IMG/VR virus record: IMGVR_UViG_3300024265_000017 | Coordinates: 1-44,452 of that record | Length of the DNA: 44,452 nucleotides | Reading direction: 5' to 3' (one strand) | DNA from: a virus | Shown: piece by piece, positions 28,411 to 44,253 of the stretch | Layout of the letters: each line of letters starts with the position of its first letter | Numbering within the stretch: the first letter of the stretch is position 1 | Notes under the pieces: generated by a model | Told to the model about the DNA's origin: nothing | Database searches by the model: none | The model's input: the letters and a program-made list of their open reading frames with translations, nothing else | Made by a program: the position numbers and the translations under genes

Positions 28411-28438
28411 ATTATACACATAACTGCTTATTTGTCAA
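28411..28438 (-). promoter_or_regulatory. Sigma70-type promoter for small gene and RNA cluster
   Basis: The minus strand has TTGACA (28433-28438), a 16-base spacer with TG just before the -10, and TATAAT (28411-28416). It overlaps the end of the upstream gene and reads into the 52-residue gene and the tmRNA-like/tRNA region. A second TATAAT is at 28369-28374. Confidence 0.75.
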
Positions 28439-28685
28439 GTTTCCTAATCCAAATATCCCTGTCAGTATCAAGCATCCATCTATCCGGTTGACAGTGGCGA
28501 CAACTACAATCTGTAGCTGTTATATCAGAACTGAAGCAGGGATAAGATGGCGTATTCACTTCTGAGTACAGCTTCTCTATTTCTTTGGCAGCAATCTTAA
28601 GTCTAACTGCATCCACAAAACAAGTAGCTTGGTCTGGATCATAGGGTAGACACTCAAATAGTATTTCAAGAATCTTGTCTATCAT
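28428..28685 (-). CDS. Small protein of the MIDKI cassette family
   Basis: The protein has 85 residues. The N-terminus MIDKILEILFECL matches a recurring N-terminal module found at 29065, 36486, 43469 and 43948. A Cys-rich middle (CFSSDITATDCSCRHC) may bind zinc, and the C-terminus (WMLDTDRDIWIRKL) is Trp-rich. The start overlaps the upstream stop (ATGA at 28682-28685). Function unknown; an early host-takeover role is only a guess from position. Confidence 0.65.
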   Translation of the reverse strand: MIDKILEILFECLPYDPDQATCFVDAVRLKIAAKEIEKLYSEVNTPSYPCFSSDITATDCSCRHCQPDRWMLDTDRDIWIRKLDK

Positions 28686-29065
28686 GTCTTCTCCCAGTCA
28701 ATCGCCATCCCTAATCGAAGCCACCTAGAAAACTGAGTACCCATGCGTTCCCAACCCTCTTTATTTTTTACAGCTTCTTCGACTGTATCAAACGCCTTTG
28801 ATAACTGTCCCTTGTCATTCCAGTAATAACGCCCTGTATCTGGACTCCAGTGCAAGGTTACACTAACAAACCCTGCTTCTGTAAATGGAACTCCGCAATC
28901 AAACGATCTCCAATTTTCAGGTAGCGCGTTCTTCTCAAACAACTCCAGTATCTCATCTGCTACTTCTCCGTAGTAATAATCAACTACACACATGAAGTCA
29001 TTTCCGCGACCGTCATCCACCAGTTGTTGATATTTTTCTAGTATCTCAATTATCTTGTCTTTCAT
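28682..29065 (-). CDS. Hypothetical protein with MKDKI N-terminal module
   Basis: The start at ATG 29065 is chosen for the GGAGG 7 bases upstream, giving 127 residues. It opens with KDKIIEILEKYQQLVD, a variant of the recurring MIxKI module, then DEILELFEKN and a C-terminal domain (LHWSPDTGRYYWNDKGQ, KAFDTVEEAVKNKEGWERMG) that resembles small phage proteins with a DTVEEAV helix. Not recognised further. It is coupled to both neighbours by 4-base overlaps. Confidence 0.65.
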   Translation of the reverse strand: MKDKIIEILEKYQQLVDDGRGNDFMCVVDYYYGEVADEILELFEKNALPENWRSFDCGVPFTEAGFVSVTLHWSPDTGRYYWNDKGQLSKAFDTVEEAVKNKEGWERMGTQFSRWLRLGMAIDWEKT

Positions 29066-29370
29066 TTCACTTCCTCCAGCCATCTAATCAAATCTTTGTT
29101 ACCCCTTACAATGGATAGAAAGCCATAAGCTAGAACATCTAATGTTGCTTCGTTGTGATCTAAAATCCCGGCTTGATACAATATGCTATGAACAATCTCG
29201 TGCATCATAACGCCTTTCTTTTCTTCTTCGTGAATAGAGGGGTCGATGGCAATTTCTCTTTGACCGTAGGTGCAATTACCAGAAATTCTTTTAGACTCAC
29301 GTCTTGTTATATCCACTACATCAAAGAACGTAGGGAATAAATATATAGTGTCCGGCATTTTAGTTTTCAT
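29062..29370 (-). CDS. Small HExxH zinc metallopeptidase
   Basis: In this 102-residue protein the motif MMHEIVHSILYQAG carries the zinc-binding HEIVH, and a downstream Glu in NEATLDVLAYGF is a plausible third ligand, as in gluzincin-type phage and ImmA/IrrE-like or SprT-like peptidases. ImmA-type enzymes cleave phage or element repressors, so with LexA-like operators nearby a regulatory role is conceivable, but the small size also fits general phage metallopeptidases. ATG 29358 is an alternative start. It overlaps the upstream gene by 11 bases. Confidence 0.7.
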   Translation of the reverse strand: MKTKMPDTIYLFPTFFDVVDITRRESKRISGNCTYGQREIAIDPSIHEEEKKGVMMHEIVHSILYQAGILDHNEATLDVLAYGFLSIVRGNKDLIRWLEEVK

Positions 29371-29539
29371 CTTGTTTTTTGTATTCCTCTTTTATCACAT
29401 GCACTTTCCCAGTTTCTTTATCCCTAAACCCCGTTATGATACATTCAATGCCATCGGCCCAGTCTACCCCAACGTGTATAGTTCCCTCTCTACCATTCAG
29501 GTCTTTCATACTGAATTGCGGAATTTTATCTATTTTCAT
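29360..29539 (-). CDS. Small hypothetical protein, 59 aa
   Basis: The protein starts at ATG 29539 behind AAGGAG (5-base spacing). It has beta-prone segments TIHVGVDWADGIECIITGF and a charged KETGKVHVIKEEYKK end. The GVDWADG turn is similar to RNase H-like first strands, but the protein is far too short for that fold. It is the first gene after the promoter-like region at 29560-29590. Confidence 0.65.
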   Translation of the reverse strand: MKIDKIPQFSMKDLNGREGTIHVGVDWADGIECIITGFRDKETGKVHVIKEEYKKQDEN

Positions 29540-29559
29540 CTCAACTCCTTGTTATAGAT

Positions 29560-29590
29560 AGTATACCATATAGGTATGGAAGGATGTCAA
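29560..29590 (-). promoter_or_regulatory. Early-type promoter with shared leader
   Basis: TTGACA (29585-29590) and TATACT (29560-29565) are 19 bases apart on the minus strand. The following leader GGTATACTATCTA plus AACAAGGAG recurs upstream of the minus gene at 38024, indicating a common promoter-leader unit. Confidence 0.55.
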
Positions 29591-29661
29591 GAGGTAATAT
29601 CTGTCCTATAACAACCACTTAACGTTTATAATAAGCAATCTTTTGCTTTATAATCTGTGTA

Positions 29662-29688
29662 GTTATGGGGGACAAAACCCCCCGTAAC
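29662..29688. other. GC-rich hairpin in AT-rich intergenic region
   Basis: GTTATGGGGG (29662-29671) pairs with CCCCCGTAAC (29679-29688) with one T-G wobble around ACAAAAC. No T run adjoins. It lies in the 29540-29748 gap, which otherwise holds the promoter above, a TATAAT at 29649-29654 and a weak AAGCAA/TTGCTT hairpin. Confidence 0.5.
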
Positions 29689-29748
29689 AGCGCAAGGCAT
29701 ACAAAGTAGTCCATATGGCATATTTAAAATTAAAATTTTATAAGGGGG

Positions 29749-29982
29749 CTATGGATCACAAGAAACGTGCAAACGCAGCTTGTTATCTTCTATCCATACC
29801 ATTAGACGAGGAGCAACATGCTTTGTCCAAAAGCATAGATATACATGCTTGAAGTGTCCCCACGTTATTTCAACTATCGGTCCACGAAGGGTTGTGTTGA
29901 AATGTATACCGAAATCTTTCTTGAATACGATGAACGGTAACTGCTCCTTATAAACTTTTCCCCAATATGAGATGGTTTTCAT
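29749..29982 (-). CDS. Hypothetical protein, 77 aa
   Basis: The protein is beta-prone and aromatic (FIVFKKDFGIHFNTTL, VEITWGHFKHVYLCFWTKH), with a basic C-terminus. There is no clear Shine-Dalgarno sequence before ATG 29982. It is the rightmost gene of the leftward early unit and borders the operator region at 30.1 kb. No family recognised. Confidence 0.5.
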   Translation of the reverse strand: MKTISYWGKVYKEQLPFIVFKKDFGIHFNTTLRGPIVEITWGHFKHVYLCFWTKHVAPRLMVWIEDNKLRLHVSCDP

Positions 29983-30129
29983 TGTTTATTTTGTCTTATT
30001 ATACCACACATAAGCGCAAGGGAACCCATACCAAGCATCAAACACACACAACCGAACGTGCCACCCCTTGTTCTTTCTTAATTCTTAATACTATATGATA
30101 TCTCTATTACAAGCCCACCAGCGGACAAT

Positions 30130-30145
30130 TAGAACATCTGTTCTA
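30130..30145. promoter_or_regulatory. 16-bp palindromic operator, LexA-box-like
   Basis: TAGAACATCTGTTCTA has 7-bp perfect arms identical to those at 28073-28088. It lies in the 335-bp divergent gap (29983-30317) between leftward and rightward early genes, where a repressor could control both directions. Confidence 0.65.
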
Positions 30146-30206
30146 TACTATGCGGTTCGTGTTCATGTTCTAAACTATCCGCTGTTCCTAATCAAGAACT
30201 ATGCCG
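30139..30206. repeat. Iterated motif (three copies) in divergent region
   Basis: TGTTCTATACTATGCGG (30139-30155) and TGTTCTAAACTATCCGC (30166-30182) match at 14 of 17 positions. A third, looser copy (TGTTCCTAA ... ACTATGCCG) follows at 30183-30206. The first copy shares its TGTTCTA with the palindromic operator. Such iterons suit an origin or a multi-site operator. Short hairpins CTTAC/GTAAG and GTGAA/TTCAC follow before the gene at 30318. Confidence 0.6.
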
Positions 30207-30317
30207 TTCGAGCCACCTAACAGAACTGTAAGCTTACAACCATGTAAGGTTTTAGCATATCTATTCACCTGGAAATTGTGTACAGTGAAGGTAATTCACT
30301 CAACCAGGAGGTTACAC

Positions 30318-30512
30318 ATGAAAGAGATCGAGAGACACGACCGCATCAGATTGAACACAGTAGTCACTGAGGACTTGCAGCACGCTGTAGCTAGGGATTA
30401 CGGCCTAGCAATAGTAGAACTTACCAGGGAGCACTACTGTAATTTCATGCTCGAGGCCGTGCATACCCGAGTGCAGGATATGAAGCACGACAAGATCGGA
30501 TTCCTAAAGTGA
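30318..30512 (+). CDS. First gene of rightward early unit, 64 aa
   Basis: ATG 30318 is chosen because AGGAGG lies 6 bases upstream; an in-frame ATG at 30201 lies in the operator region. The protein is charged and helical (MKEIERHDRIRLNTVVTEDL, VELTREHYCNFMLEAVHTRV) and not recognised. As the first gene after the operator region it could be regulatory; there is no clear helix-turn-helix. Confidence 0.65.
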   Translation: MKEIERHDRIRLNTVVTEDLQHAVARDYGLAIVELTREHYCNFMLEAVHTRVQDMKHDKIGFLK

Positions 30513-30682
30513 AGCACATACAAGATAAAACAATCAGGATTGAAATTAGCTGGAGGCAGAGCAGAAGCAAACGTTTTGGTTGGACTAAATCAGAGCGTTT
30601 TGGACTACACCGAATCTATATACGCGCCAGAAGAATAACTGTTTTTATAGAATGGGAAAAAGAGGACTACTTCGATGACTAG
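30509..30682 (+). CDS. Small basic protein with GTG start, 57 aa
   Basis: The GTG at 30509 overlaps the previous stop (GTGA). The product is Arg/Lys/Trp-rich (EISWRQSRSKRFGWTKSERF, HRIYIRARRITVFIEWE), compatible with nucleic-acid binding. The ribosome site is weak (GGA), so expression probably depends on coupling. No family recognised. Confidence 0.5.
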   Translation: MKHIQDKTIRIEISWRQSRSKRFGWTKSERFGLHRIYIRARRITVFIEWEKEDYFDD

Positions 30683-30722
30683 CACTTGAGGATATATAAA
30701 TTCAACTAACAAGGAGCAGCAA

Positions 30723-30959
30723 ATGAAAACTTTATGCTACATCGAAGGCCCGTATAAGATCGAAAGCGTCCCCGTTGTCGGCAAGACAGTTTATGTCCTG
30801 TACCGCAATGATATGGCGGCCAAAGCCTATGATACAGTCGGAGCAGCACTTGACGCAATCACCCGGATCAAGACCCCCCAAAACATCGAGGTGAGCTGGT
30901 CTGACTGCGATGGAGTAAATTGCAGATCGGGCTGTAACACCTGCTACCCATTCAACTAA
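30723..30959 (+). CDS. Small Cys-tailed protein, 78 aa
   Basis: Beta-prone N-terminal half (YKIESVPVVGKTVYVLYRN), a helix (AAKAYDTVGAALDAI), then a Cys-rich tail CDGVNCRSGCNTC that could bind a metal. The leader TTCAACTAACAAGGAG (30701-30716) recurs exactly at 30951-30966 before the next gene. Function unknown. Confidence 0.65.
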   Translation: MKTLCYIEGPYKIESVPVVGKTVYVLYRNDMAAKAYDTVGAALDAITRIKTPQNIEVSWSDCDGVNCRSGCNTCYPFN

Positions 30960-30974
30960 CAAGGAGTGAAGAGA

Positions 30975-31142
30975 ATGAAGAAACCCACCTGGGAAGAGAT
31001 AGCAAAAGTTCACAGAGACGCAAGCGAAAGACGGATGGAAGTAATCCTAAAACAACGAAAAACCATCAAAGAGTTAGAGGAGGTTATACAATCTATCAGA
31101 AAGTCAATCTATACCCTTTCAAAGAAAATATCATCCAAATAG
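30975..31142 (+). CDS. Small coiled-coil protein, 55 aa
   Basis: ATG 30975 lies behind AAGGAG. The protein is highly charged and helical (EEIAKVHRDASERRMEVIL, IKELEEVIQSIRKSI), likely one coiled coil. Its leader duplicates that of the preceding gene, partly inside that gene's last codons. No family recognised. Confidence 0.6.
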   Translation: MKKPTWEEIAKVHRDASERRMEVILKQRKTIKELEEVIQSIRKSIYTLSKKISSK

Positions 31143-31216
31143 ATGAAATATAATTCCATAATTCAATGACTGAATTATAACGGTAAACAATTTGATATAC
31201 TACCTGGAGGTAGAAC

Positions 31217-31441
31217 ATGTATAAACAAGGTGATTTGTACACTAATAAAGAGAGTACACTAAGGATTGACGAGGTAGGGGATGTGTTTATCAAGTGCAGC
31301 ACGGTAAACTATAGAACCAACAGCGTTTTCACTGGTAAAGTGTTCTATAGTTCAGTTGATAATATTATAAGGGACTGCGGCTTTATATATGAAGGTAATT
31401 ATACTAATCCCAATCTTGTTGGATTGAATAGATTATCATAA
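31217..31441 (+). CDS. Hypothetical protein, 74 aa
   Basis: Strong ribosome site GGAGG 6 bases before ATG 31217. The sequence is beta-prone (STLRIDEVGDVFIKCSTVNY, VFTGKVFYSSVDN), reminiscent of a small barrel, ending in Asn-rich EGNYTNPNLVG. The upstream 74-base gap has TATACT near 31193 and may hold a promoter. Unknown function. Confidence 0.6.
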   Translation: MYKQGDLYTNKESTLRIDEVGDVFIKCSTVNYRTNSVFTGKVFYSSVDNIIRDCGFIYEGNYTNPNLVGLNRLS

Positions 31442-31500
31442 GTAAAAACAGTGGTATATAGTCATAATGTAGTGTAGAATTATAGCAAGTGGAGGTTACA

Positions 31501-31704
31501 ATGGAAGCAGGAACCGTATTATATACGAATCACGTAATGACTGCACCGGAAGCTGAGGCATATAACGATCACCAGGACAAATGCGATAAATATCTTGCTG
31601 CGCATCCCGAAACCGCCCTAACGTTTGGTACACTGGCGAACAGGACCTATAATCACCTGTTAGACTGCAAACATAAGTTCATGGTATGTATTGCAGAAAG
31701 CTAG
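31501..31704 (+). CDS. Hypothetical protein, 67 aa
   Basis: I start at ATG 31501 (GGAGG at 31491-31495) instead of the in-frame GTG at 31489, which overlaps the ribosome site. Helical, with MTAPEAEAYNDHQDKCDKYL and NRTYNHLLDCKHKF. No motif recognised. Confidence 0.6.
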   Translation: MEAGTVLYTNHVMTAPEAEAYNDHQDKCDKYLAAHPETALTFGTLANRTYNHLLDCKHKFMVCIAES

Positions 31705-31757
31705 CACCCTATTGAGGTATTTGTTAGGTATATCTTAGACAAGCTGGAGGTAATACA

Positions 31758-32072
31758 ATGAACTGGATTAGTGTTAAAGAGCCACCAAAAACAGATGGGA
31801 TTTATCAGGTTGCAAAATCAAGCGGATTCGCAGTTTCGTGTGCGGAATATAAAAGCGGGGTTTGGTATAGTGTAATGTACGGAAAGAGAAAAACAATATT
31901 TATCACCCACTGGCAGCCCTTATCTGCGCCACCGTTTGTCACCCACTGGCGACCTGAGTTAATAAAATGCCCTGACTGCAAAGGGGAGGGGGACCACCTA
32001 TCCGAAAACAAAACCTACTATTACGATTGTCATTCCTGTCGTGGTACAGGTAGACTTATTATCAACGCTTAG
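31758..32072 (+). CDS. DUF551-like protein with DnaJ-type zinc motif
   Basis: The 104-residue protein opens with NWISVKEPPKTDGIYQVAK and later ITHWQPLSAPP, the two signatures of phage DUF551 proteins (WIS...G.Y...HW.PLP). It continues with CPDCKGEG and CHSCRGTGR, two CxxCxGxG zinc-finger repeats as in DnaJ. The combination suggests protein binding, but no function is established for DUF551. GGAGG precedes ATG 31758. Confidence 0.75.
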   Translation: MNWISVKEPPKTDGIYQVAKSSGFAVSCAEYKSGVWYSVMYGKRKTIFITHWQPLSAPPFVTHWRPELIKCPDCKGEGDHLSENKTYYYDCHSCRGTGRLIINA

Positions 32073-32105
32073 GATAATTGTAATCACTTATAATAGGAGG
32101 TAATC

Positions 32106-32327
32106 ATGGCAAGCTATCAAGGACATAGAAGTTGGAACGCATGGAACATATCACTATGGATAAACAATGACGAGCCGCTATACCGTTGGGCTTTGGATTT
32201 AGTACAGGAACACGGCAGACGCAAGGCAGCCAGGATCATGACAAGAGACCTTGAAGGAACAACAACCCCAGACGGCGGGAAGTATAACTTTACCTGTATA
32301 TTTGAAGCACTTGAAGGATACATCTAA
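32106..32327 (+). CDS. Conserved-looking small phage protein, 73 aa
   Basis: The start YQGHRSWNAWNISLWINNDE followed by LYRWALDLVQE is a pattern I associate with a widespread family of small phage proteins without known function. AGGAGG lies before ATG 32106. The leader (32077-32097) is nearly repeated at 32554-32573. Confidence 0.7.
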   Translation: MASYQGHRSWNAWNISLWINNDEPLYRWALDLVQEHGRRKAARIMTRDLEGTTTPDGGKYNFTCIFEALEGYI

Positions 32328-32347
32328 CTAACAAGGAGGTATTACAC

Positions 32348-32536
32348 GTGGATAACAAGCCACATAGCATGACGGCTACTGAAAGAGAGGTTATGCTGGT
32401 ACTCGATAGACTGGGGTTAGGGTACGCATGGTATACAAGCGGAAAATTACCGAGTGATACATGCTGTGTAATATGTGGGCTTGAACATGTTGATTTTATT
32501 ATCAACAGAAAACCCTTCCATCTTGAGTGTATATAA
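32348..32536 (+). CDS. Small zinc-binding protein with GTG start, 62 aa
   Basis: GTG 32348 has an ideal AGGAGG 8 bases upstream. The protein has a helical first half (TATEREVMLVLDRLGL) and a C-terminal CCVICG...HVDFIINRKPFHLEC zinc-finger-like end. No family recognised. Confidence 0.65.
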   Translation: MDNKPHSMTATEREVMLVLDRLGLGYAWYTSGKLPSDTCCVICGLEHVDFIINRKPFHLECI

Positions 32537-32585
32537 TGACTAACCGAGAGACTATTGTAATCGTTTGTAATAGAGGTGATATAAT

Positions 32586-32741
32586 ATGAGTATGAATAAC
32601 TGGGTATTTTATAGTGATGATACAATCACCTGTACTGGATGCTTGAAAGATTACCAAGCTGATGATCTACTAACCCCGTGTTCTCACTGTGGACTTGATA
32701 AAGTAAAGGAGCCGAAAGATGAACCAACAGACAGCAGATAA
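32586..32741 (+). CDS. Small zinc ribbon protein, 51 aa
   Basis: The protein has two CxxC pairs (CTGC and CSHC) about 16 residues apart, a treble-clef or ribbon-like zinc site, followed by a charged tail. The ribosome site is GAGGTGA and the 3' end overlaps the next gene by 23 bases in another frame. Unknown function. Confidence 0.65.
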   Translation: MSMNNWVFYSDDTITCTGCLKDYQADDLLTPCSHCGLDKVKEPKDEPTDSR

Positions 32742-33090
32742 GGAAGAAGAGCTGCTCAAGTGGGCAGACGACCACGCCAATGTGATAGAGAATGAATGGA
32801 TGATAAACCTCACGGCTATCAAGGCTCGTATCAAGATGGCGTTCGACTCCCTTGTTAGTGAGGATGAGGGATTTACCAAGCCTTGTGTTTGCGGAAGCAC
32901 TATGCATATACAGCACCATTGGGAGTGCTTGAATTGCAAAAAGGGAATAAAACAAACCGACTCTGAGATAGCCAAGCGGGTGTTTTTAGAATACTGCAAG
33001 ACTATTATTCCAGACTATGAACCAGACACATTAACGCAGGCTTATTTTGACTGGCTAGACAGTCTAGATAGGAGAGAAGATGAACACTAA
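32719..33090 (+). CDS. Small cassette-family protein (SLVSEDE module), 123 aa
   Basis: This protein contains the recurring pieces FDSLVSEDE (about 43-51), EIAKRVFLEYCK and FDWLDS near the C-terminus, with a zinc-like CVCG...CLNC insertion. The same pieces recur in genes at 36679, 39700, 40238 and 42038. AAAGGAG lies before ATG 32719. Function unknown. Confidence 0.7.
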   Translation: MNQQTADKEEELLKWADDHANVIENEWMINLTAIKARIKMAFDSLVSEDEGFTKPCVCGSTMHIQHHWECLNCKKGIKQTDSEIAKRVFLEYCKTIIPDYEPDTLTQAYFDWLDSLDRREDEH

Positions 33091-33280
33091 ACTTTGGGAC
33101 GTTAGCCTAAGATGGTGCAACTACGAATCACCCCGACTTGAGGTAACCCTGTTCCACTACGTCAAAGGCGATGCTATATATTTTGTGTATATACAATTAT
33201 ACAAGCTGGTGTTTAGCTTTCATTTTGATTTGCATGAGCGACACCTTCGCAACACTGGATACTACGATATGAGAGGATGA
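33080..33280 (+). CDS. Hypothetical protein, 66 aa
   Basis: Overlaps the previous stop by 11 bases with GGAG upstream. Beta-prone and aromatic (RLEVTLFHYVKGDAIYFVYI, KLVFSFHFDLHERHL). The pattern resembles the 43-residue product at 40110. Unknown function. Confidence 0.6.
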   Translation: MNTKLWDVSLRWCNYESPRLEVTLFHYVKGDAIYFVYIQLYKLVFSFHFDLHERHLRNTGYYDMRG

Positions 33281-33281
33281 C

Positions 33282-33458
33282 ATGAATGAATGGAAATGTA
33301 TTGACCTGGAATGTACTCATTGGGACGGAGACAGGTGTGCTCTTGGATTTTGTGAACCGGATATACCGAAGCAAGATAGGTGTCCCGAATGTGGCTTAAC
33401 AAAAAAGTATCATTGGTACGGGTGCAGTAGGGATAAAGGAAATATAAACGAGGACTAA
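33282..33458 (+). CDS. Cys-rich small protein, 58 aa
   Basis: Seven cysteines (C6, C11, C19, C24, C34, C37, C48) with a CPEC pair in the middle suggest one or two zinc sites. It starts at ATG 33282, 2 bases after the preceding stop. Unknown function. Confidence 0.6.
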   Translation: MNEWKCIDLECTHWDGDRCALGFCEPDIPKQDRCPECGLTKKYHWYGCSRDKGNINED

Positions 33459-33464
33459 ACCTGA

Positions 33465-33499
33465 CGTGCAAATCAGCTTTAGTAACATTACTTTGCACG
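33465..33499. other. Inverted repeat downstream of Cys-rich gene
   Basis: CGTGCAAA (33465-33472) and TTTGCACG (33492-33499) form a perfect 8-bp stem with a 19-base loop. No T run adjoins. It lies in the 142-bp gap before the gene at 33601, which also holds a GGGG-AATAAA-CCCC hairpin near 33537. Confidence 0.45.
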
Positions 33500-33589: not shown

Positions 33590-33600
33590 GGAGTAACACA

Positions 33601-33819: not shown

Positions 33820-33856
33820 CTTGCCCTACTAACTATCTATTACAAGGAGTATGGAT

Positions 33857-34036
33857 ATGAAAGAACTTGTGGAAGTGTTGGGCTACACTATACTAGAATT
33901 GGAACACTTTATTATTTACTTCAAAGAAAACGAGGGGAGCGACACTTTGGTACGAACGGTTGCATTCCTTGAAGCCGAGAATAAGCAGCTCAAAGAAGCA
34001 ATCAAACGACTGGCAGACATTGTAAGGTATCTATAA
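33857..34036 (+). CDS. Small helical protein, paralogue of 34765
   Basis: ATG 33857 is preferred over ATG 33851 because of AAGGAG spacing. The 59-residue product shares LGYTI.ELEHFIIYFKENE and RTVAFLEAENKQ with the gene at 34765, separated by three genes, so the pair arose by recent duplication. Likely a coiled-coil protein. Function unknown. Confidence 0.65.
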   Translation: MKELVEVLGYTILELEHFIIYFKENEGSDTLVRTVAFLEAENKQLKEAIKRLADIVRYL

Positions 34037-34718: not shown

Positions 34719-34768
34719 TATACCGATGTGCTTGTGATAAGCCAGAGTTTCAAGGAGACACCAAATGA
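34715..34768 (+). CDS. Possible 17-residue translated peptide
   Basis: ATG 34715 overlaps the previous stop (ATGA), has GAGGAGG upstream and its own stop overlaps the ATG at 34765. The product includes CAC and may simply couple translation of its neighbours. Confidence 0.35.
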   Translation: MIYRCACDKPEFQGDTK

Positions 34769-34962
34769 ATGACATGCGAGTGCTTGGATACACTATCCCA
34801 GAGCTAGAACACTTTATTATTTACTTCAAAGAAAACGAGGGAAGCGATAACCTAATACGAACAGTTGCATTTCTTGAAGCTGAGAACAAGCAATTCAGAA
34901 GTACTATTAAAAATCTCCGCGAAGGCTTCCGCGCGATAGCTGATTTCTGGGTTGGCAGATGA
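34765..34962 (+). CDS. Small helical protein, paralogue of 33857
   Basis: The 65-residue product repeats LGYTIPELEHFIIYFKENE and RTVAFLEAENKQ of the gene at 33857, with a different basic C-terminus (KNLREGFRAIADFW). It is the last gene of the rightward unit; only 22 bases separate it from the convergent minus gene and no hairpin is visible there. Confidence 0.65.
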   Translation: MNDMRVLGYTIPELEHFIIYFKENEGSDNLIRTVAFLEAENKQFRSTIKNLREGFRAIADFWVGR

Positions 34963-36095: not shown

Positions 36096-36259
36096 TGCTC
36101 CTCCTCGTAGTCTTCTTCGTCCAGTTCGTAGAACTCTAATGTAGCGTTTGGATTAAAAAGCCAGATTGTTTTCCCCGTTCCATCACACAGACCATACGCT
36201 TCTTGTAAGGTGCTGCAAGGATTTTCAAGCGTTCCTCTTTCTGCTGTTTTTTCATCCAT
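36092..36259 (-). CDS. Acidic small protein, 55 aa
   Basis: ATG 36259 overlaps the upstream stop (ATGA) and has GGAGGAG upstream. The product has LQEAYGLCDGTGKTIWLFNP and a strongly acidic end (ELDEEDYEEEQ). A second start in another frame (ATG 36255) is less likely because this frame is coupled at both ends. Confidence 0.55.
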   Translation of the reverse strand: MDEKTAERGTLENPCSTLQEAYGLCDGTGKTIWLFNPNATLEFYELDEEDYEEEQ

Positions 36260-36486
36260 CACTCCTCCTTCTTGCTGTTGAGCCAGTCTTCAAAGTTCGC
36301 CCCATCGTAGGTCGAGTAAAACTTATCATCAATGTCATTCTCGCTGAACTCGTACCACACTTCCTCTGCAATCTCATACCGCAGGGCTGGATCATCAAGG
36401 TAATCACACAAAGCATAGAAAGCTATCCAACCGTCCATTTCTGTATCCACTAGATGATTGCTATAATCCTTTATCTTCTCTATCAT
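36259..36486 (-). CDS. Cassette-family protein (MIEKI ... WLNSKKEE), 75 aa
   Basis: The start at ATG 36486 follows AAGGAGGAAGC. That ribosome site plus the first codons are repeated at 43456-43480. The protein has MIEKIKDYSNHL, RYEIAEEVWYEF and the terminal DWLNSKKEE, modules shared with 43469 and 43948. Function unknown. Confidence 0.7.
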   Translation of the reverse strand: MIEKIKDYSNHLVDTEMDGWIAFYALCDYLDDPALRYEIAEEVWYEFSENDIDDKFYSTYDGANFEDWLNSKKEE

Positions 36487-36692
36487 GCTTCCTCCTTCCA
36501 TGCTTGATACTCACGCTCGCCTCTATCGCCTGACTTGTTACAGTTAGGACAAGGTATTTCTTCTCCGTCTACTTCAATCATGCGGAACGGATCACAACAA
36601 ACTTGACAACCTAAACTATGCCCCCACTTGGGAGTTCTGTGTTCCATGATTGCCTCGTCCCACTCTCTAAGCGTGATGTCAAGTTGTGTCAT
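36483..36692 (-). CDS. Small zinc ribbon protein, 69 aa
   Basis: CQVCC and CPNCN about 23 residues apart form a zinc ribbon between helical ends (LDITLREWDEAIMEHR and EREYQAWKEEA). It overlaps both neighbours by 4-14 bases. Function unknown. Confidence 0.65.
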   Translation of the reverse strand: MTQLDITLREWDEAIMEHRTPKWGHSLGCQVCCDPFRMIEVDGEEIPCPNCNKSGDRGEREYQAWKEEA

Positions 36693-37032
36693 TACCTTCC
36701 TTGTCTAGCCAGCCTCCAAATGTTGGAAACGCCGTATAAGTTTCATGTTGATTATTCCTTTCTATAATTGGCTTATAATAAGCATCGCTTTCTTTTTTAT
36801 ATCTCCCCCATACCCGCTTGGCTATCTCCTTCTCATCCACGGCTTCCATCACAGCATTTACTCCATCTGCGTAGGCTTGGTCGTACATCTCCTTATCAGA
36901 GGGGAGGGAATTGAGTTGTTGTTCAAGGTCTTTGATTGACCACTTATCATCTTCCTCGATGTTCTCAAAAAAAGCAATTACATCGTCAATGTCTACTAGC
37001 CTTATCTTATCTGCTTCGTCTCTGGATAACAT
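36679..37032 (-). CDS. Cassette-family protein (EIAKRV ... WLDKEGN), 117 aa
   Basis: The product contains LEQQLNSLPSDKEMYDQAYA (a variant of the NSLVSEDE module), EIAKRVWGRYKK and the terminal FGGWLDKEGN. Similar pieces are in 32719, 39700, 42038 and 42310. The ribosome site GGAGG lies before ATG 37032. Function unknown. Confidence 0.65.
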   Translation of the reverse strand: MLSRDEADKIRLVDIDDVIAFFENIEEDDKWSIKDLEQQLNSLPSDKEMYDQAYADGVNAVMEAVDEKEIAKRVWGRYKKESDAYYKPIIERNNQHETYTAFPTFGGWLDKEGNDTT

Positions 37033-37371: not shown

Positions 37372-38024
37372 GCTGGCTCCACCTGTTTGATGTTCTGGTA
37401 GATTACATCTGAGTTCTTGCCCTTCACACCAAGTATGTAGAGTAATACGTTACCACCTGGTATCGGTGCTTTATCTACTTGTGCTGGAGACCAATGAAAC
37501 ATTTTATTGAACTCATCTTTCGCCCAGTCTTGTCCGTAGTAATATCCTGCTACTGCCTTATCACTACTTCCACTAAAGAAGTTTATGAACTGCTTGCCAT
37601 CCCATGAATAAGTCTCAGCACGTACTTGATAGCTGTCGTTCTCTCTTATCTCTTCAAGTTTACCTGGCTTCATACCAAGATAGTTGTGTCCTTCTGGAAT
37701 TTCTAACAAGCCACTTGCTATTGATGCTACTTCTTCTGGTGTAACATAAGTTACTTCACCACCAAGCTGTTTAGCCTGTGCGAGTACGGACACTGGTTCT
37801 TGTGGGTCAGTGGGATATTTTGATGCTGGCTTGTCAAGCTCTGCCTTGTTGTAGTCCCTTACAAAAGGTATAGCTCCTTCTTGAATCGCTAACGCAATAG
37901 TCGCTTGTAAATCTACGTATGATTCAAGTGAAGTTTCTTTCCTTGATGTAAGGCTGTGCTGAAATCCATCCTTGTCTATGAACGATGTAAAATCTATTCC
38001 ACCTGCGTATTCTGTTTTAGCCAT
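37368..38024 (-). CDS. Hypothetical protein, 218 aa, first gene of leftward unit
   Basis: I do not recognise it. It has a polar N-terminus (TEYAGGIDFTSFIDKDGFQH), a helical middle (LQATIALAIQEGAIPFVRDY), and a C-terminal part rich in aromatic strands (SYQVRAETYSWDGKQFINFF, NVLLYILGVKGKN). As the promoter-proximal gene of an early unit it should be strongly expressed; a DNA-binding role such as an SSB substitute can only be guessed. AAGGAG precedes ATG 38024. Confidence 0.6.
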   Translation of the reverse strand: MAKTEYAGGIDFTSFIDKDGFQHSLTSRKETSLESYVDLQATIALAIQEGAIPFVRDYNKAELDKPASKYPTDPQEPVSVLAQAKQLGGEVTYVTPEEVASIASGLLEIPEGHNYLGMKPGKLEEIRENDSYQVRAETYSWDGKQFINFFSGSSDKAVAGYYYGQDWAKDEFNKMFHWSPAQVDKAPIPGGNVLLYILGVKGKNSDVIYQNIKQVEPA

Positions 38025-38047
38025 TTGATTTCTCCTTGTTATGTTAG

Positions 38048-38076
38048 ATAGTATACCACAACTAATAACTTGTCAA
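38048..38076 (-). promoter_or_regulatory. Early leftward promoter
   Basis: TTGACA (38071-38076) with TACTAT 17 bases later (38048-38053; TATACT at 15 bases overlaps it). The leader GGTATACTATCTA ... AACAAGGAG is shared with the promoter at 29560-29590. Confidence 0.7.
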
Positions 38077-38117: not shown

Positions 38118-38126
38118 TGATATAAT
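38118..38126 (+). promoter_or_regulatory. Extended -10 promoter for methyltransferase/replication operon
   Basis: TGATATAAT at 38118-38126 is a TG-extended -10 box. A TTGACA lies too close (7-base spacing) to serve as its -35. AAGGAG and ATG 38149 follow. It forms a divergent pair with the promoter at 38048-38076. Confidence 0.6.
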
Positions 38127-38148
38127 GTTACCATATCAAGGAGTAGGC

Positions 38149-38760
38149 ATGAGATTATTAGATTTATTTTGCTGTGCTGGTGGGGCAGCAATGGGTTATC
38201 ATCGAGCAGGATTTGAGGTGGTAGGCGTTGACATAAACCCGCAACCTAACTATCCATTTGAGTTCATCCAGGCTGATGCCCTTGATTATCTTTGGGGTCA
38301 CTGGGATGAGTTTGACGCGATTCATGCCAGTCCACCGTGCCAAAAGTTCAGCGCAATGCAACATATCCACAAAAACAAAGACAAGCATCCCGACTTGATA
38401 ACACCTACCGCCAAGTTGCTGAACAAAATAAACATACCTTATGTCATAGAAAACGTAGTGGGTGCGCCGTTACGGATTGATCTTCTTCTATGTGGTACTA
38501 TGTTTGGGCTTCCGATAGCGAACCATAGAATATTTGTTAGCAATGTGCCAATGCCATTATTGACTATGGTTTGTAAGCATGAGAATTTATACGACCCTTA
38601 TCACGGCGGGGAAATGGGGAGGGGCGAGAGAGAAAAGAGAAGCGCAGCAATAGGGGTTGACTGGTTCATGACTAGGCCGGAAGTTAGAGAGGCTATACCT
38701 CCAGTATACACAGAATTTATTGGCAAGATACTTTATAAGCACTTACAGGAGAACAAATGA
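38149..38760 (+). CDS. C5-cytosine DNA methyltransferase (short phage type)
   Basis: Motif I LDLFCCAGGAAMGYHRAGF, a GVDI acidic SAM-binding turn, motif IV SPPCQKFSAM with catalytic C64, motif VI VIENVVGAP, motif VIII-like CGTMFGL...NHRIF and a terminal EAIPPVYTEFIG are all visible. It transfers methyl from SAM to cytosine C5 in DNA, probably to protect the phage from host restriction. At 203 residues it is shorter than typical enzymes and has little room for a target-recognition domain. ATG 38149 follows AAGGAG; it overlaps the replication gene by 4 bases. Confidence 0.88.
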   Translation: MRLLDLFCCAGGAAMGYHRAGFEVVGVDINPQPNYPFEFIQADALDYLWGHWDEFDAIHASPPCQKFSAMQHIHKNKDKHPDLITPTAKLLNKINIPYVIENVVGAPLRIDLLLCGTMFGLPIANHRIFVSNVPMPLLTMVCKHENLYDPYHGGEMGRGEREKRSAAIGVDWFMTRPEVREAIPPVYTEFIGKILYKHLQENK

Positions 38761-39494: not shown

Positions 39495-39502
39495 GAGGAA
39501 TG

Positions 39503-39703
39503 ATGGCTATACATTTTATGTATGATGCGGGCAATGATTTTGCTTGGTATGACCCTGAACCAAACATGATGGTTGCTTGTGGCATGTCATTCGATGTGCC
39601 GAAAGATTGGGGCAAGGTAGACATAGTTGAGGATGTAAAGAAAGTAACCTGTAAGAATTGCAAGCGTACTGAAGTGTATAAATTTTATGAGGAGACACAA
39701 TGA
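39503..39703 (+). CDS. Small zinc-like protein, 66 aa
   Basis: GGAGG precedes two in-frame ATGs (39500, 39503); the second has better spacing. The product is acidic-aromatic (FMYDAGNDFAWYDPEPN) with CKNCKR near the end. The next gene overlaps its stop by 4 bases. Unknown function. Confidence 0.6.
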   Translation: MAIHFMYDAGNDFAWYDPEPNMMVACGMSFDVPKDWGKVDIVEDVKKVTCKNCKRTEVYKFYEETQ

Positions 39704-40110
39704 ACGACTCAAAGCACTACATCAGTAGACAAGCTAAGGATGAGATAATTAAATGGACTAATAATAGAATAGACATAGCAGGGGCTTGCTTTTTTGCTCC
39801 CCAATCATTTAGGGACTTCCTCAACTCCCTTGTTAGTGAGGATGAAGAACACGGATTGTCAAGAATAGAGGTTGCGTATTGTGATTGCCGAAATTGTGTA
39901 GCTATGAGAAAAGAGATAGCCAAGCGGATGATTGAAAAGTTTTACAAAAGATATGACAATATAGCTAGTGTTAGCAGGAATGATGTTCGTCTATTTTGGT
40001 TTGATGACTGTCTAGACAAGGAAGGCAACAAGGACGTGAAGTTTATCCCAGCAGAAGCAAACAAGTTGGGTGCTGACATCTATTTTAGTTGTCCAGATAA
40101 GGAGGACTGA
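39700..40110 (+). CDS. Cassette-family protein (SKHYISRQA ... SLVSEDE), 136 aa
   Basis: The first 36 bases are identical to the start of the gene at 40238 (MNDSKHYISRQA). It also carries FLNSLVSEDE, EIAKRMIEKFYKRY and DDCLDKEGNK, pieces shared with 32719, 36679 and 42038, plus a CDCRNC pair. Mosaic construction from reused segments. Function unknown. Confidence 0.7.
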   Translation: MNDSKHYISRQAKDEIIKWTNNRIDIAGACFFAPQSFRDFLNSLVSEDEEHGLSRIEVAYCDCRNCVAMRKEIAKRMIEKFYKRYDNIASVSRNDVRLFWFDDCLDKEGNKDVKFIPAEANKLGADIYFSCPDKED

Positions 40111-40241
40111 TGAAGATAACTACAAATGATTATGACGCAGTAACACTTGGTATTAGATATAATTATCTGTTCAAAATCCTGGCTATTTTTATCTGGAAAG
40201 TAGAGATCACGTTTCGGTTTGGAAACAAGGAGAACGAATGA
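40110..40241 (+). CDS. Small hypothetical protein, 43 aa
   Basis: The product KITTNDYDAVTLGIRYNYLF followed by IWKVEITFRFGNKEN has one hydrophobic segment, and overlaps both neighbours by 1-4 bases. GGAGG lies before ATG 40110. It resembles the 66-residue product at 33080. Unknown function. Confidence 0.6.
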   Translation: MKITTNDYDAVTLGIRYNYLFKILAIFIWKVEITFRFGNKENE

Positions 40242-40513
40242 ACGACTCAAAGCACTACATCAGTAGACAAGCTGCGGATGATATACTTGAAGTTTGGGGC
40301 GAAGATTATATATTCTACGTTGAGAAATATGGGTTCGTTTTGACATGGGATGACGCTAAAGAATACATCAACTCACTTGTTGAAGTACCTCATACGGAGT
40401 ACTTAAGTGGTACAGATTACACAGACAAGCTTGAACAAAAGCTGATTGACACTGAGTGTGGTGAGTGTACTAAGAACATGTTAGAATGTAAGTGTGATGA
40501 CAAGGAGGAGTGA
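40238..40513 (+). CDS. Cassette-family protein (SKHYISRQA), 91 aa
   Basis: Shares 36 identical bases at its start with 39700 and a shortened YINSLVEV module; the C-terminus has CGECTKNMLECKC, a likely zinc site. It overlaps the previous and next genes by 4 and 1 bases. Function unknown. Confidence 0.7.
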   Translation: MNDSKHYISRQAADDILEVWGEDYIFYVEKYGFVLTWDDAKEYINSLVEVPHTEYLSGTDYTDKLEQKLIDTECGECTKNMLECKCDDKEE

Positions 40514-40716
40514 TGAAGAAACTAACGACTGAACAGAAGGATAGTGCAATTTGGTTCTTTACAAAAGGCGGGCTTTATTTACCAGAACACACACTTGCCA
40601 GAATAAAGCAATGGCTCAACGAGAACACAGAGGAAGAACAAGAGTGTCGTCACGATGTTTGGGTTCATTCCGCAGATGGCGTATATGAATGTCCAAGATG
40701 CGGGAAAACTGAATGA
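40513..40716 (+). CDS. Small zinc-binding protein (LNENTEEE module), 67 aa
   Basis: ATG 40513 overlaps the previous stop and follows AAGGAGG. The piece LNENTEEE, with identical underlying bases, recurs at about 43797. The C-terminus has CPRCGKTE with an earlier Cys-His. Stop overlaps the helicase start by 4 bases. Confidence 0.65.
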   Translation: MKKLTTEQKDSAIWFFTKGGLYLPEHTLARIKQWLNENTEEEQECRHDVWVHSADGVYECPRCGKTE

Positions 40717-42023
40717 CTGATATCTCACCGCCTCACTCAATAGAATCAGAAGAAGCTCTAATAGGTGCGGTACTTATCAATCCAAGCAGTTACGATGATG
40801 TAGAGCCTATCATCAAAGAGCCTACCTATTTTTATATCATTCGTAATCAGTGGGTATGGCAAGCGTTTGCAAGACTATTAGAATCAGGACTACCTATTGA
40901 CTTCCTTACTGTTACGGAAGAACTTGACAAGATGGGACACTTGGAAGATATAGGTGGTGCTTCATACATTACCAAACTTGTCAACAATGTACCCTCATCC
41001 CTTCACAGCAAAGCCTACGCCCTTAGAGTGGCGGAGACATGGGAGAGAAGGGAAGGACTGAGGCTTGCTAATAGAATTGCTAGAGATGCTTACAACGAGG
41101 ACAAGGATTTCAGTGAGGCTAAACTAACTCACGCTACAGAACTTGCATCGACTAGTGTTATGGGTGAAGGTGCAGTACATATTGATACTTGGCTGTCAGA
41201 TGGGTATGACTACTTGGAAGAACGCTCAAAGAACCCTACCTCTCACGCTGGTATATCAACAGGGCTTGGTGATTTGGATAGGGTGTTCGGGGATGGCTTG
41301 TTACCAGGTGCTAACTTATTAATAGGTGAACCAGGACTAGGTAAAACTATTCTAGCCCAACAGATAGCAGTCAACATAGCCAAAGATAAAGTACCAACAG
41401 CTTTCTATTCAGCGGAAATGTACTGGCGTGACATGTATCTTAGGTTCATGTCTGGACAGGCTAGACAGAAGGTAAGCGACATGCGGAAGGGAACGGTAGA
41501 CTTTACAGGTATCACTCAAGCAATGGAAGAAATGGGCAAGTATCCATTATGGGTTGATGATCCGAAAGGAATGACAACCTCAGAGCTGAGAGCCGACTTA
41601 ATAAAGTTGAAGGCAGAACACGATATAAAGGTTATGGTGTTTGATTATCTTGGCAAGCTGGTAGACCTTGAAGGCAAGATGGAAAAATGGAAACGAGCAG
41701 AATTGCTAATGGCTAGGGTTCAAGATATAGTGGTTGAACTTGACATAGTGGGGCTTGTTGTTCATCAAGTAACAAAGGCTGGCTACGATAATCCCAGCAT
41801 GGCAAACATTTCGGGGGGCGGGGATACTCAATACGAGATAGTCTGTGCTGTTCAAATTCTAAAGCACGATGAGGACAACTTGAGAAAGATAGTAAACATC
41901 AAGCCCCCGCGTGGAGTAGAGGGATATTGGAAGCTGTGTGAGCTTTGGAAAGACCCCTTGTACCCTCGCTTCGAGCTTGCTAAGAAAGAAGAACCAGTGA
42001 TGTATAAAGACTATACAGTATAA
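40713..42023 (+). CDS. dnaB: DnaB-family replicative helicase
   Basis: The 436-residue protein has the DnaB N-terminal domain (SIESEEALIGAVLINPSSYD, FLTVTEELDKMGHLEDIGG), a linker, and a RecA-like ATPase: LDRVFGDGLLPG, Walker A GEPGLGKT (205-212), a TAFYSAEM segment with the catalytic Glu region, Walker B VMVFDYLGKL and a late GGGDTQYEI sensor. It unwinds DNA ahead of the host replisome and would be loaded by the product at 38757. Length is normal. The start overlaps the preceding stop by 4 bases. Confidence 0.9.
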   Translation: MTDISPPHSIESEEALIGAVLINPSSYDDVEPIIKEPTYFYIIRNQWVWQAFARLLESGLPIDFLTVTEELDKMGHLEDIGGASYITKLVNNVPSSLHSKAYALRVAETWERREGLRLANRIARDAYNEDKDFSEAKLTHATELASTSVMGEGAVHIDTWLSDGYDYLEERSKNPTSHAGISTGLGDLDRVFGDGLLPGANLLIGEPGLGKTILAQQIAVNIAKDKVPTAFYSAEMYWRDMYLRFMSGQARQKVSDMRKGTVDFTGITQAMEEMGKYPLWVDDPKGMTTSELRADLIKLKAEHDIKVMVFDYLGKLVDLEGKMEKWKRAELLMARVQDIVVELDIVGLVVHQVTKAGYDNPSMANISGGGDTQYEIVCAVQILKHDEDNLRKIVNIKPPRGVEGYWKLCELWKDPLYPRFELAKKEEPVMYKDYTV

Positions 42024-42037
42024 GGAGATGTGATATA

Positions 42038-42310
42038 ATGAACAGAGCAACAGCAGACAAGATACTTGAATATGTAACAGAAAATCCTGTATGGGATGCT
42101 ATACCAGACTATCTTGGGTTTGAAATATTCATCAACTCCCTTGTTAGTGAGGATGAGCCATTAGAACTTGCAATCAATCGCCAAGAAATAGAAAAACAGA
42201 AACGCCAAATCACCAAGCGGATGATTGGGGAGTTTTATTTGGACTATCCAGGTAGTCAATGTGGTACTTTGCAAGAGCTTATAAAGTGGCTAAACAAGGA
42301 AGGCAAGTGA
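42038..42310 (+). CDS. Cassette-family protein (SLVSEDE ... WLNKEGK), 90 aa
   Basis: Modules IFINSLVSEDE, QITKRMIGEFYLDY and the end LIKWLNKEGK match pieces in 32719, 36679 and 39700. The ribosome site is AAGGAG and the stop overlaps the next start by 1 base. Function unknown. Confidence 0.7.
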   Translation: MNRATADKILEYVTENPVWDAIPDYLGFEIFINSLVSEDEPLELAINRQEIEKQKRQITKRMIGEFYLDYPGSQCGTLQELIKWLNKEGK

Positions 42311-42462
42311 TGAAAAAGGTATTGACTGATGATATTATAGACGAGTTGATGTTACAAGAGGATGGATGGTATATACTTAAAGTGTATATACGGAAAGACG
42401 GTGACGATTTTGTCACAGACCTGCCGTCTTTGACTCGATGCTTAGACAAGGAAGGTGACTAA
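42310..42462 (+). CDS. Small protein ending in LDKEGD, 50 aa
   Basis: Start ATG 42310 overlaps the previous stop. The product KKVLTDDIIDELMLQEDGWY ends in RCLDKEGD, the reused C-terminal piece, while its N-terminus is distinct. Function unknown. Confidence 0.6.
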   Translation: MKKVLTDDIIDELMLQEDGWYILKVYIRKDGDDFVTDLPSLTRCLDKEGD

Positions 42463-42650
42463 TGGAACGATACTTGGAATTACAAAAATGCTGCGGTGAA
42501 TACCCAAAGCTAATATCAAGGGCTGATGGTGCAAGACGAGTTGAATGTAAAGTTTGTGATAACAGTACACCTTACTACTTGTCTTCTGGCTTGAGTGCAA
42601 ATGAATCTTGGAATGAATTGAGAAGTAAACAACTAGATAGGGAGGAGTGA
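42462..42650 (+). CDS. Zinc ribbon protein, Lar-like
   Basis: The 62-residue product has CCGEYPKL, RRVECKVCD and the end ANESWNELRSK. The spacing of a Cys-Gly knuckle, a VxCxxC knuckle and a final A.E.WNELR helix resembles Lar-type restriction-alleviation proteins, which modulate type I restriction, but the first CxxC is altered (KCCG). Next to a DNA methyltransferase this would fit anti-restriction; still tentative. Confidence 0.45.
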   Translation: MERYLELQKCCGEYPKLISRADGARRVECKVCDNSTPYYLSSGLSANESWNELRSKQLDREE

Positions 42651-43192
42651 TGTATAGCGTGATAGTAGCTGACCCACCATGGGAAATTGACAAGATAAAA
42701 AGAAGCGTCCGTCCAAACCAAATTGACATGGACTACCCAATGATGTCTGTTAAAGAGATAATGGAACTCCCTGTTGAGAGCATAGCAGACGACAATGCAA
42801 CCTTATTCGTTTGGACTATTGACAAATACCTTTATCAAACACCAGCGATAGTTGAGGCGTGGGGATTCAAGTACCACGTTACTATGGCGTGGAATAAAAC
42901 AAATGGGATATCTTTATATGGGTTTAACAGACGTACAGAGTTCTTAGTCGTTGGGTTGCGGGGAAAACACGAAGCGTATCCTTCTAGAAAAACAATACCT
43001 ACTTCATTTACGGCGAAATCAAAAAGGCACAGTGAAAAACCTGCTGGGTTTTATGCTATGCTAGATGTATTAGACGGGAACAGGATAGACTTGTTTGCTA
43101 GGAAAAGGCACGGCGACATGTTTGCAAAAGACTGGGACGTTTGGGGCAATGAAGTCGAGAGTGACATAAATTGGGGAATCCCGTGCGGATAA
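42650..43192 (+). CDS. MT-A70 family adenine N6 methyltransferase
   Basis: The 180-residue protein starts with MYSVIVADPPWEI, carrying the catalytic DPPW motif, followed by YPMMSVKEIMELP, ATLFVWTIDKYL, a GFNRRTEFLVVGLRGK segment and HSEKPAGFY with RIDLFARKRHGD, all typical of phage MT-A70 enzymes. It methylates adenine in DNA, probably against host restriction. ATG 42650 follows GGAGG. Confidence 0.9.
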   Translation: MYSVIVADPPWEIDKIKRSVRPNQIDMDYPMMSVKEIMELPVESIADDNATLFVWTIDKYLYQTPAIVEAWGFKYHVTMAWNKTNGISLYGFNRRTEFLVVGLRGKHEAYPSRKTIPTSFTAKSKRHSEKPAGFYAMLDVLDGNRIDLFARKRHGDMFAKDWDVWGNEVESDINWGIPCG

Positions 43193-43377
43193 TTACCATC
43201 AACACAGAGCAATACAATCACTTACAAAAGGACACGCTTTACCGCCAGATAGAACAAGTCGCGGAAGATGTTGAACAAGTTGAGGCTTGGCTTAAATACA
43301 GAGGAACACCAAACGCAACAGTTTATAGATATAAGAGCAGACCAGGTAGAATAGTATGGAGGGTGGAAGATGGATAA
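43183..43377 (+). CDS. Hypothetical protein with GTG start, 64 aa
   Basis: GTG 43183 overlaps the methyltransferase stop by 10 bases; TTG 43171 is an alternative. Helical (INTEQYNHLQKDTLYRQIEQ, VAEDVEQVEAWLKYRG) with a basic beta-like end. The ribosome site is poor. Function unknown. Confidence 0.5.
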   Translation: MRIITINTEQYNHLQKDTLYRQIEQVAEDVEQVEAWLKYRGTPNATVYRYKSRPGRIVWRVEDG

Positions 43378-43705
43378 GATAGACGCAAAGCTAAAAGAGA
43401 TACACGACAACATGCCGGAGGTTGAGTGGATGATACATAAAGGTATTCTTAGAACTCAAGGAGGAAGCATGATAGAGAAATATATTGAGATAATGTCAAA
43501 GTATCTTTGCGGGCTAACCAATATTACATACAAGACACATCAAATAATAGAAGAAATAAATCTACCTCTAATCGCCCAAGAACTCCACGCCCTAAGGTAT
43601 GAGATTGTAGAGGAAGTGATTGAGGAGTGGGAAAAAGAAATGGAGCCTCCTCTGTATGCTTTTATCCCGTTTCCTGACTGGCTCAACAGCAAGAAGGAGG
43701 AATAA
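43370..43705 (+). CDS. Cassette-family protein with internal start (MIEKY ... WLNSKKEE)
   Basis: The full frame has 111 residues. A strong internal ribosome site AAGGAGGAAGC precedes ATG 43469, the same as before ATG 36486 on the other strand. The internal product would be 78 residues with MIEKYIEIMSKYL, RYEIVEEVIEEWE and the end DWLNSKKEE. The upstream 33 residues (DKIDAKLKEIHDNMPEVEWM) look like a separate small gene fused in frame, or a distinct long form. Confidence 0.65.
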   Translation: MDKIDAKLKEIHDNMPEVEWMIHKGILRTQGGSMIEKYIEIMSKYLCGLTNITYKTHQIIEEINLPLIAQELHALRYEIVEEVIEEWEKEMEPPLYAFIPFPDWLNSKKEE

Positions 43706-43948
43706 GTGTTTGAGTTATGGTGGGAAAATATTAGCATGAACCTTACTGAATGGACTGGACACAAAGAAGTAGTAGAGACTTACGCTAGAGAAGCCCTCAA
43801 CGAGAACACAGAGGAAGAAGTTACAAGTCCAATCAGTGACAAGACTTGCGAACACACAAAGATTACCGAAGGGTGTGATTGCTGTTATGAGTGGGCTTTT
43901 GGTACGCCAGAACCCCAACACCCATGCCCTGAGTGTGAGGAGGAGTGA
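43706..43948 (+). CDS. Cys-rich protein with LNENTEEE module, 80 aa
   Basis: GTG 43706 follows AAGGAGG by 5 bases, abutting the previous stop. LNENTEEE shares bases with 40513. The C-terminus has CEHTKITEGCDCCYEW and CPECEEE, a probable zinc site. An internal ATG at 43736 is possible. Confidence 0.65.
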   Translation: MFELWWENISMNLTEWTGHKEVVETYAREALNENTEEEVTSPISDKTCEHTKITEGCDCCYEWAFGTPEPQHPCPECEEE

Positions 43949-44253
43949 TGATAGATAAGATAGTTGAGATATTTGAGAAACGCATGTTTGAACCGTATCC
44001 ACGCTGGAGAGAATTAATGCCATCAGATATTCCTGATATAGCCCAAGAAATCCAGCTTATCGTAGACAAGGAAGGACAACAGTGTTGGGATAATGGTGTC
44101 GAGTGGTGTAAAATGCACCATCCTGAAACTTGGAAATCTAAATATGAGATTGCAGAGGAAGTGTTGAGAGAATTTCTGGACGGCAATCCACCACTTGACT
44201 GTAGTGATATAGGGGCATTATACGAATGGTTCAACAGCAAGAAGGAACAATGA
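43948..44253 (+). CDS. Cassette-family protein (MIDKI ... WFNSKKEQ), 101 aa
   Basis: ATG 43948 overlaps the previous stop. It contains MIDKIVEIFEKRM, KYEIAEEVLREF and the end EWFNSKKEQ, matching 36486 and 43469, with a divergent middle (CWDNGVEWCKMHHPETWKSK). The stop overlaps the resolvase start (ATGA at 44250). Function unknown. Confidence 0.7.
   Translation: MIDKIVEIFEKRMFEPYPRWRELMPSDIPDIAQEIQLIVDKEGQQCWDNGVEWCKMHHPETWKSKYEIAEEVLREFLDGNPPLDCSDIGALYEWFNSKKEQ

Follow-up and report, generated by a model that had tools for sequence, protein, structure and literature searches.

Short in-frame DNA blocks shared among small, probably early, genes of a previously unsampled phage

Phage genomes abound in small genes that have no relatives, and where these come from has long been a puzzle. 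How such genes might arise is raised in a concrete form by IMG/VR virus record IMGVR_UViG_3300024265_000017, analysed here over its whole length of 44,452 bases (the window). Between positions 28428 and 44253, this one genome displays an intermediate state: the ends and motifs of its orphan proteins are encoded by nearly identical DNA, and the remainder is unrelated. A first-pass annotation had proposed that at least nine of these proteins share short pieces in different combinations, owing to repeated recombination at coding micro-modules. We consider it likely that the genes, designated here by the coordinates of their starts, form a paralogous small-gene family, repeatedly duplicated and kept mosaic by recombination at short homologies (about 20-40 nt).

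Employing an all-against-all ungapped DNA comparison, we aligned 42 small genes in the coding sense, from both strands and with physically overlapping neighbours set aside; three codon-shuffle runs of the same genes served as controls. At most two high-scoring segment pairs per control run reached a score of 15, and the best scored 17. Among the real genes, over 20 non-adjacent pairs reached scores of 17 or more, the highest being 46, with the reading frame shared in essentially every case, and at least 14 non-adjacent pairs shared in-frame blocks scoring above every control. Pairs of 18-20 points were background in several control phages, by a count with greedy open reading frames (ORFs) that is crude (several real genes of the window were lost) and served solely to find junction repeats in other phages.

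Genes 39700 and 40238 shared 36 coding bases exactly, as first described, and 64 nt at 88% overall. Identity extended over 26/26 nt in the WLNSKKEE block, 24/24 nt in the LNENTEEE block (40510 and 43706), 28/29 and 24/25 nt in the NSLVSEDE blocks and 22/22 nt in the YEIAEEV block. The ribosome site and MIEK codons shared by 36486 and 43469 formed another exact block of 22/22 nt, in agreement with the first-pass annotation, whose description of the NSLVSEDE, YEIA(E/V)EV, EIAKR, WLNSKKEE, LDKEGN and LNENTEEE blocks also held. The sharing is real and its extent had been underestimated, at least 13 genes taking part: three tail types are spread over at least nine genes, and there are internal blocks besides, on both strands. 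In the whole genome, DNA encoding NSLVSEDE occurred at three coding places only (32845, 39823 and 42134), with 0-1 mismatch and in the same frame; no antisense or intergenic copy was found. Because frame and sense are constant although the genes occupy both strands, the blocks have been passed on as coding sequence, not as dispersed DNA elements.

Protein alignments revealed a single motif order in all copies: a head (MIDKI or SRxxADK), an NSLVSEDE-like middle, EIA(K/E)(R/E)V-xx-(E/K)(F/Y) further on and W(L/F)N near the end. Since this order never varies and head types and tail types mostly go together, the "different combinations" were overstated. Five genes (36486, 43469, 43948, 28685 and 29065) constitute family A and five others (39700, 40238, 42038, 32719 and 37032) family B. 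With profiles of the two families, each other's members came out next best among 788 ORFs; hhalign joined their C-terminal halves (P 3e-4), and 43948 and 42038 gave a 43-residue ungapped match with a score of 53 (shuffled maximum 46). Families A and B thus appear to be largely one paralogous superfamily with a common C-terminal half. Genes 40510, 43706 and 42310 had only the tail in common, plus a loosely similar MKKxLT-like head. The genes follow a single motif order, modified by losses, extensions and insertions; cassettes are not freely permuted. Nucleotide and profile comparison, the check that the first-pass annotation had suggested, hence bore out blocks above shuffle level and told against free cassettes, the two families being related. 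Aligned together, the small proteins proved too variable for the alignment to serve as a search query.

Such a family might have diverged, full length, from one ancestor without any exchange, the blocks being merely conserved residues. The collinear motif order in every member, weak copies included (NSLPSDKE in 37032; AD or similar in family B heads), speaks for this, as do the mutual next-best profile matches and the common C-terminal half. However, conservation of residues does not keep synonymous codons. In ungapped matches picked by protein score alone (at least 42, ordinary pair excluded), 72 of 85 identical residues, summed over the rows of the comparison, had the same codon, about 39 being expected from codon usage. 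Identical codons per block numbered 13/13, 9/10, 9/10, 8/8 and 7/7, with 8/8 in LNENTEEE and 7/7 in the SLVSEDE block of 32719/42038, and the head of 39700/40238 kept 14/14 versus 6.3 expected. Individual blocks had P values of 4e-6 to 1e-2, which are biased because those blocks were picked on DNA. The true paralogue pair 33851/34765, our yardstick, is 76% identical over 50 residues, yet retained only 23/38 codons.

The spacers between blocks were at noise level. Compared with shuffled sequence, they gave z scores of -0.4 and 0.7 for 36486/43469, and of 0.1 (after the head) and 1.3 for 39700/40238; in these two pairs and in 36486/43948, protein and DNA alignments were both at shuffle level. 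The yardstick pair reached 22.6 in the same test. A faint signal was seen in the head of 32719/42038 (z 2.8) and in 43469/43948 (z 2.6); therefore, some members are old relatives. In addition, 39700 combines a head of the 40238 type (36/36 nt) with a middle and EIA block of the 42038 type, and 40238 is without the C half. Codon identity, unrelated spacers and this conflict between head and middle are three tests that favour exchange. Because the blocks keep almost all synonymous codons while the spacers are statistically unrelated, divergence by itself does not account for them. Whole-length similarity with even synonymous divergence, as in ordinary paralogues, was found only in 33851/34765 and not in the family genes. 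Full-length homology, which the first-pass annotation had set against its own proposal, is present in part, as one paralogous superfamily (43948/42038 and the hhalign result); codons and spacers weigh against its corollary of no exchange. We regard divergence without exchange as unlikely.

Many blocks are gene junctions, composed of a protein tail, a ribosome site and the next start. The WLNSKKEE tail is encoded by CTCAACAGCAAGAAGGAGGA(A/G)T(A/G)A, the LDKEGN tail includes AAGGAAGG directly ahead of the next ATG, and many tails hold the Shine-Dalgarno sequence of the next gene. A recombination junction in such tails would spare translation on both sides. One such edge was compared with a sister phage, contig L008, whose metalloprotease-like gene matches 29062-29370 at 65% overall; the last 13 shared residues (the RGNKDLIRWLEEV end) and the ribosome site agree at 37/39 nt, and beyond this conserved junction the next gene differs from that of the window. 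Both marks of boundary-homology mosaicism, short shared DNA at gene edges and different genes beyond the edge, were accordingly observed, the second as a single case (one junction, one sister phage).

Alternatively, nucleotide-level selection on translation coupling, ribosome-site context or mRNA structure could have fixed the blocks after ancient duplication, with no recombination involved. Tail and head blocks do overlap the Shine-Dalgarno sequence and start of the next gene, and the starts of non-structural genes in Cluster K mycobacteriophages carry Start Associated Sequences (PMC3203893). Against this, the NSLVSEDE and EIAKRV blocks are internal and have no evident ribosome-site role, NSLVSEDE DNA is confined to the coding frame, and the head block covers 36 nt of the gene, whereas the ribosome-site spacer is not the same. 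We find this explanation quite improbable. From the sequence we infer recombination, rather than such selection, as the maker of the pattern, and likewise the identity of whatever enzyme would do the exchange. It is also doubtful that the in-frame micro-blocks are standing recombination sites, with spacers exchanged between fixed motifs so that new early proteins would be built continually. A dedicated diversity-generating cassette system that recombines micro-modules into new host-takeover or anti-defence proteins is very improbable: many short blocks do lie within one genome and 20 of 48 proteins in the region carry CxxC pairs, a feature often found in small regulators, but motif order is fixed, there is no function match, no reverse transcriptase or site-specific recombinase was seen among the large ORFs, and no reverse transcriptase with a template/variable repeat pair was apparent in the subset of ORFs scanned.

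In the duplication-and-recombination account that we prefer, small, probably early, genes would arise through repeated duplication, and recombination between short homologies would keep the family mosaic. Exchange at gene junctions (last codons with Shine-Dalgarno sequence and next start) would swap whole genes with translation unbroken, and exchange at the in-frame internal motifs NSLVSEDE and EIA(K/E)(R/E)V would yield chimaeric proteins. Recombination at these two kinds of place offers a testable route to new orphan genes. Of the micro-module proposal, short-block recombination gains support (codons kept, spacers at shuffle level) and free recombination into new combinations does not.

Several observations weigh against our account. 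Block by block, P values for codon identity are modest, the blocks being 6-14 codons long; in the tails WLNKEGK and CLDKEGD, codon identity did not exceed chance. Tails and heads overlie ribosome sites, so nucleotide selection could keep the codons constant there. The collections searched contained one sister contig only (6.3 kb), so exchange is not visible across several relatives. The portal genes of L008 and the window (23374-25233), 69% identical overall, share one 40-nt identical run; the junction block is thus not unique, and runs of this sort also occur outside the small genes, although the run is compatible with short-tract exchange in general. Among the genes scanned, no annealing recombinase was recognised. 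An ORF running across the contig ends (44253-44452 continuing at 1-293) resembles RusA-like Holliday-junction resolvases (E 4e-4; 21.3 bits, cut-off 22.8) and is served by a ribosome site within the tail of 43948; a RusA resolvase is probably encoded.

What the proteins do was approached by homology searches. Family A and B genes had no significant match in Pfam or PHROG and no relative in the phage and viral searches made; weak PHROG and Pfam matches (E 0.001-0.2) were discarded. The DNA patterns of NSLVSEDE and WLNSKKEE had no match in viral_contigs, tblastn of three small proteins returned nothing credible, and no profile match to Ea22-like or DUF551 early proteins was obtained for family genes. 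At 31758-32072, a DUF551-like N-terminus (E 0.005; 18.0 bits, cut-off 22) is fused to a CxxCxGxG zinc segment; this small protein, too, is mosaic. AlphaFold models were helical and of low confidence (predicted local distance difference test scores 52 and 62; 42038, at 62, was all-helix). CxxC pairs occur in 20 of the 48 proteins of 28428-44253 (shuffle mean 5) and in none of the structural proteins, which makes it plausible that the small proteins are helical, often zinc-binding, adaptors. For the host-takeover or anti-defence role first suggested we found no support, there being no significant Pfam or PHROG match to an annotated function. The small genes are probably early, as they adjoin replication and methylase genes and strong sigma-70-like promoters (judged by eye) precede their operons. 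The two DNA methylase genes, at 38125-38760 and 42647-43192, are of the C5-cytosine type and the MT-A70 adenine type, respectively. A repeated promoter-leader set (TTGACA...TGGTATACTATC) lies ahead of two leftward small-gene operons (29539-29575 and 38024-38060, minus strand), and a second set (TTGACA...TATNATTCAT; 15876-15955 and 27574-27620) lies ahead of the scaffold/capsid genes and the 27.3-27.6 kb genes.

Coordinates of the genes compared are collected in the table. Likely starts differ from listed ORF starts in several cases (36486 not 36501; 42310 not 42259; 29065 not 29083), and the MIDKI start of 43948 was read from the sequence, the ORF being listed from GTG 43945.

Table. Small genes of the window that share blocks, with the yardstick paralogue
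Feature	Coordinates	Strand	Remarks
Family B gene	39700..40110	+	SKHYISRQA head, NSLVSEDE, EIAKRM, CLDKEGN, 26-residue extension
Family B gene	40238..40513	+	36-nt head as in 39700, truncated INSLV motif, Cys-rich end
Family B gene	42038..42310	+	NRATADK head, NSLVSEDE, QITKRMIGEFY, WLNKEGK tail
Family B gene	32719..33090	+	NQQTADK head, DSLVSEDE, Cys4 insert, EIAKRV, WLDS
Family B gene	36679..37032	-	LSRDEADK head, NSLPSDKE, EIAKRV, WLDKEGN tail
Family A gene	36259..36486	-	MIEKI head with ribosome site, YEIAEEV, WLNSKKEE tail
Family A gene	43469..43705	+	MIEKY, YEIVEEV, WLNSKKEE; likely start inside ORF 43370
Family A gene	43948..44253	+	MIDKI head, YEIAEEV, WFNSKKEQ tail; C half matches 42038
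Family A gene, divergent	28428..28685	-	MIDKILEI head, KIAAKEI, CSCRHC
Family A gene, divergent	28682..29065	-	MKDKIIEI head; after conserved junction of metalloprotease-like gene
Metalloprotease-like gene (SprT/IrrE-like, below cut-off)	29062..29370	-	RGNKDLIRWLEEV end
LNENTEEE gene, then CxxC segment	40510..40716	+	24/24 nt in common with 43706
LNENTEEE gene, then CxxC segment	43706..43948	+	24/24 nt in common with 40510
Gene ending CLDKEGD	42310..42462	+	likely start 42310
Yardstick: ordinary paralogue of 34765-34962	33851..34036	+	119 nt, 82%; 23/38 codons identical

The first and last 127 bases of the record are identical (1-127 and 44326-44452); the genome is thus either circular or circularly permuted and measures about 44,325 bp. 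The gene order (terminase, portal, giant protein, scaffold, capsid) is that of a podovirus record from Manatee Spring, whose terminase is only about 26% identical. With terminase, helicase, capsid and portal as queries, the sole close relative in the collections searched was L008 (terminase 67%, portal 71-73% identical), and the small-gene half, searched as 16 kb of DNA against the phage collection, gave no match. The phage is previously unsampled. A capsid relative (L005, 34%) in a Saccharibacteria metagenome-assembled genome was too remote to be of use and does not identify the host. A tRNA-His gene (anticodon GTG) lies at 27738-27811 on the minus strand.

Comparable arrangements are known from other phages. 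In mycobacteriophage Island3 (Cluster I, genes 67/68), a small orphan resembles the upstream gene in its last 18 residues and over about 50 bp of DNA, from which recombination between short homologous gene ends was inferred (PMC3029335). Shared gene ends are common to both cases; Island3 has one junction between two adjacent genes, whereas the window has three tail types, internal blocks and both strands. The model of short conserved boundary sequences (cited in PMC3029335), in which homologous recombination at gene edges swaps modules, likewise fits the edges, but many blocks here either have coding sequence to both sides of the junction or lie entirely within a gene. Start Associated Sequences consist of a single 13-bp element that precedes the starts of non-structural genes and overlaps the ribosome site (PMC3203893); the window also repeats short DNA at starts, but its blocks are coding and of several types, and do not qualify as such elements. 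Homologous fragments in otherwise unrelated phage proteins have been described (PMC10684548), but that mosaicism was studied between phages at the domain level, in contrast to blocks of 6-18 residues inside one genome. Ea22 of lambdoid phages (PMC7093339) offers a loose likeness, as an early-region gene with one end conserved and the remainder divergent (architecture compared from the paper's alignment description); no sequence relation between the Ea22 family and the window genes was found.

Among the control phages, Sporosarcina phage Lietuvens repeats 24 nt at 96% at the ends of two genes, together with the ribosome site and the following start, and Vibrio phage K29b repeats 28 nt at 100% at one gene end and in one intergenic copy. 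These gene-junction repeats resemble those of the window but are isolated pairs, and no multi-block gene family was seen there; in the nine phage records compared with the window, repeated DNA was mainly intergenic or within long tail genes (top matches compared with annotation by eye). Because of these junction repeats and the published case of Island3 gene 68, the kind of event is already known, and the window stands out by how many blocks it has and by the internal position of some. It thus holds a new orphan paralogous family that displays a known kind of phage mosaicism in an unusually dense form.

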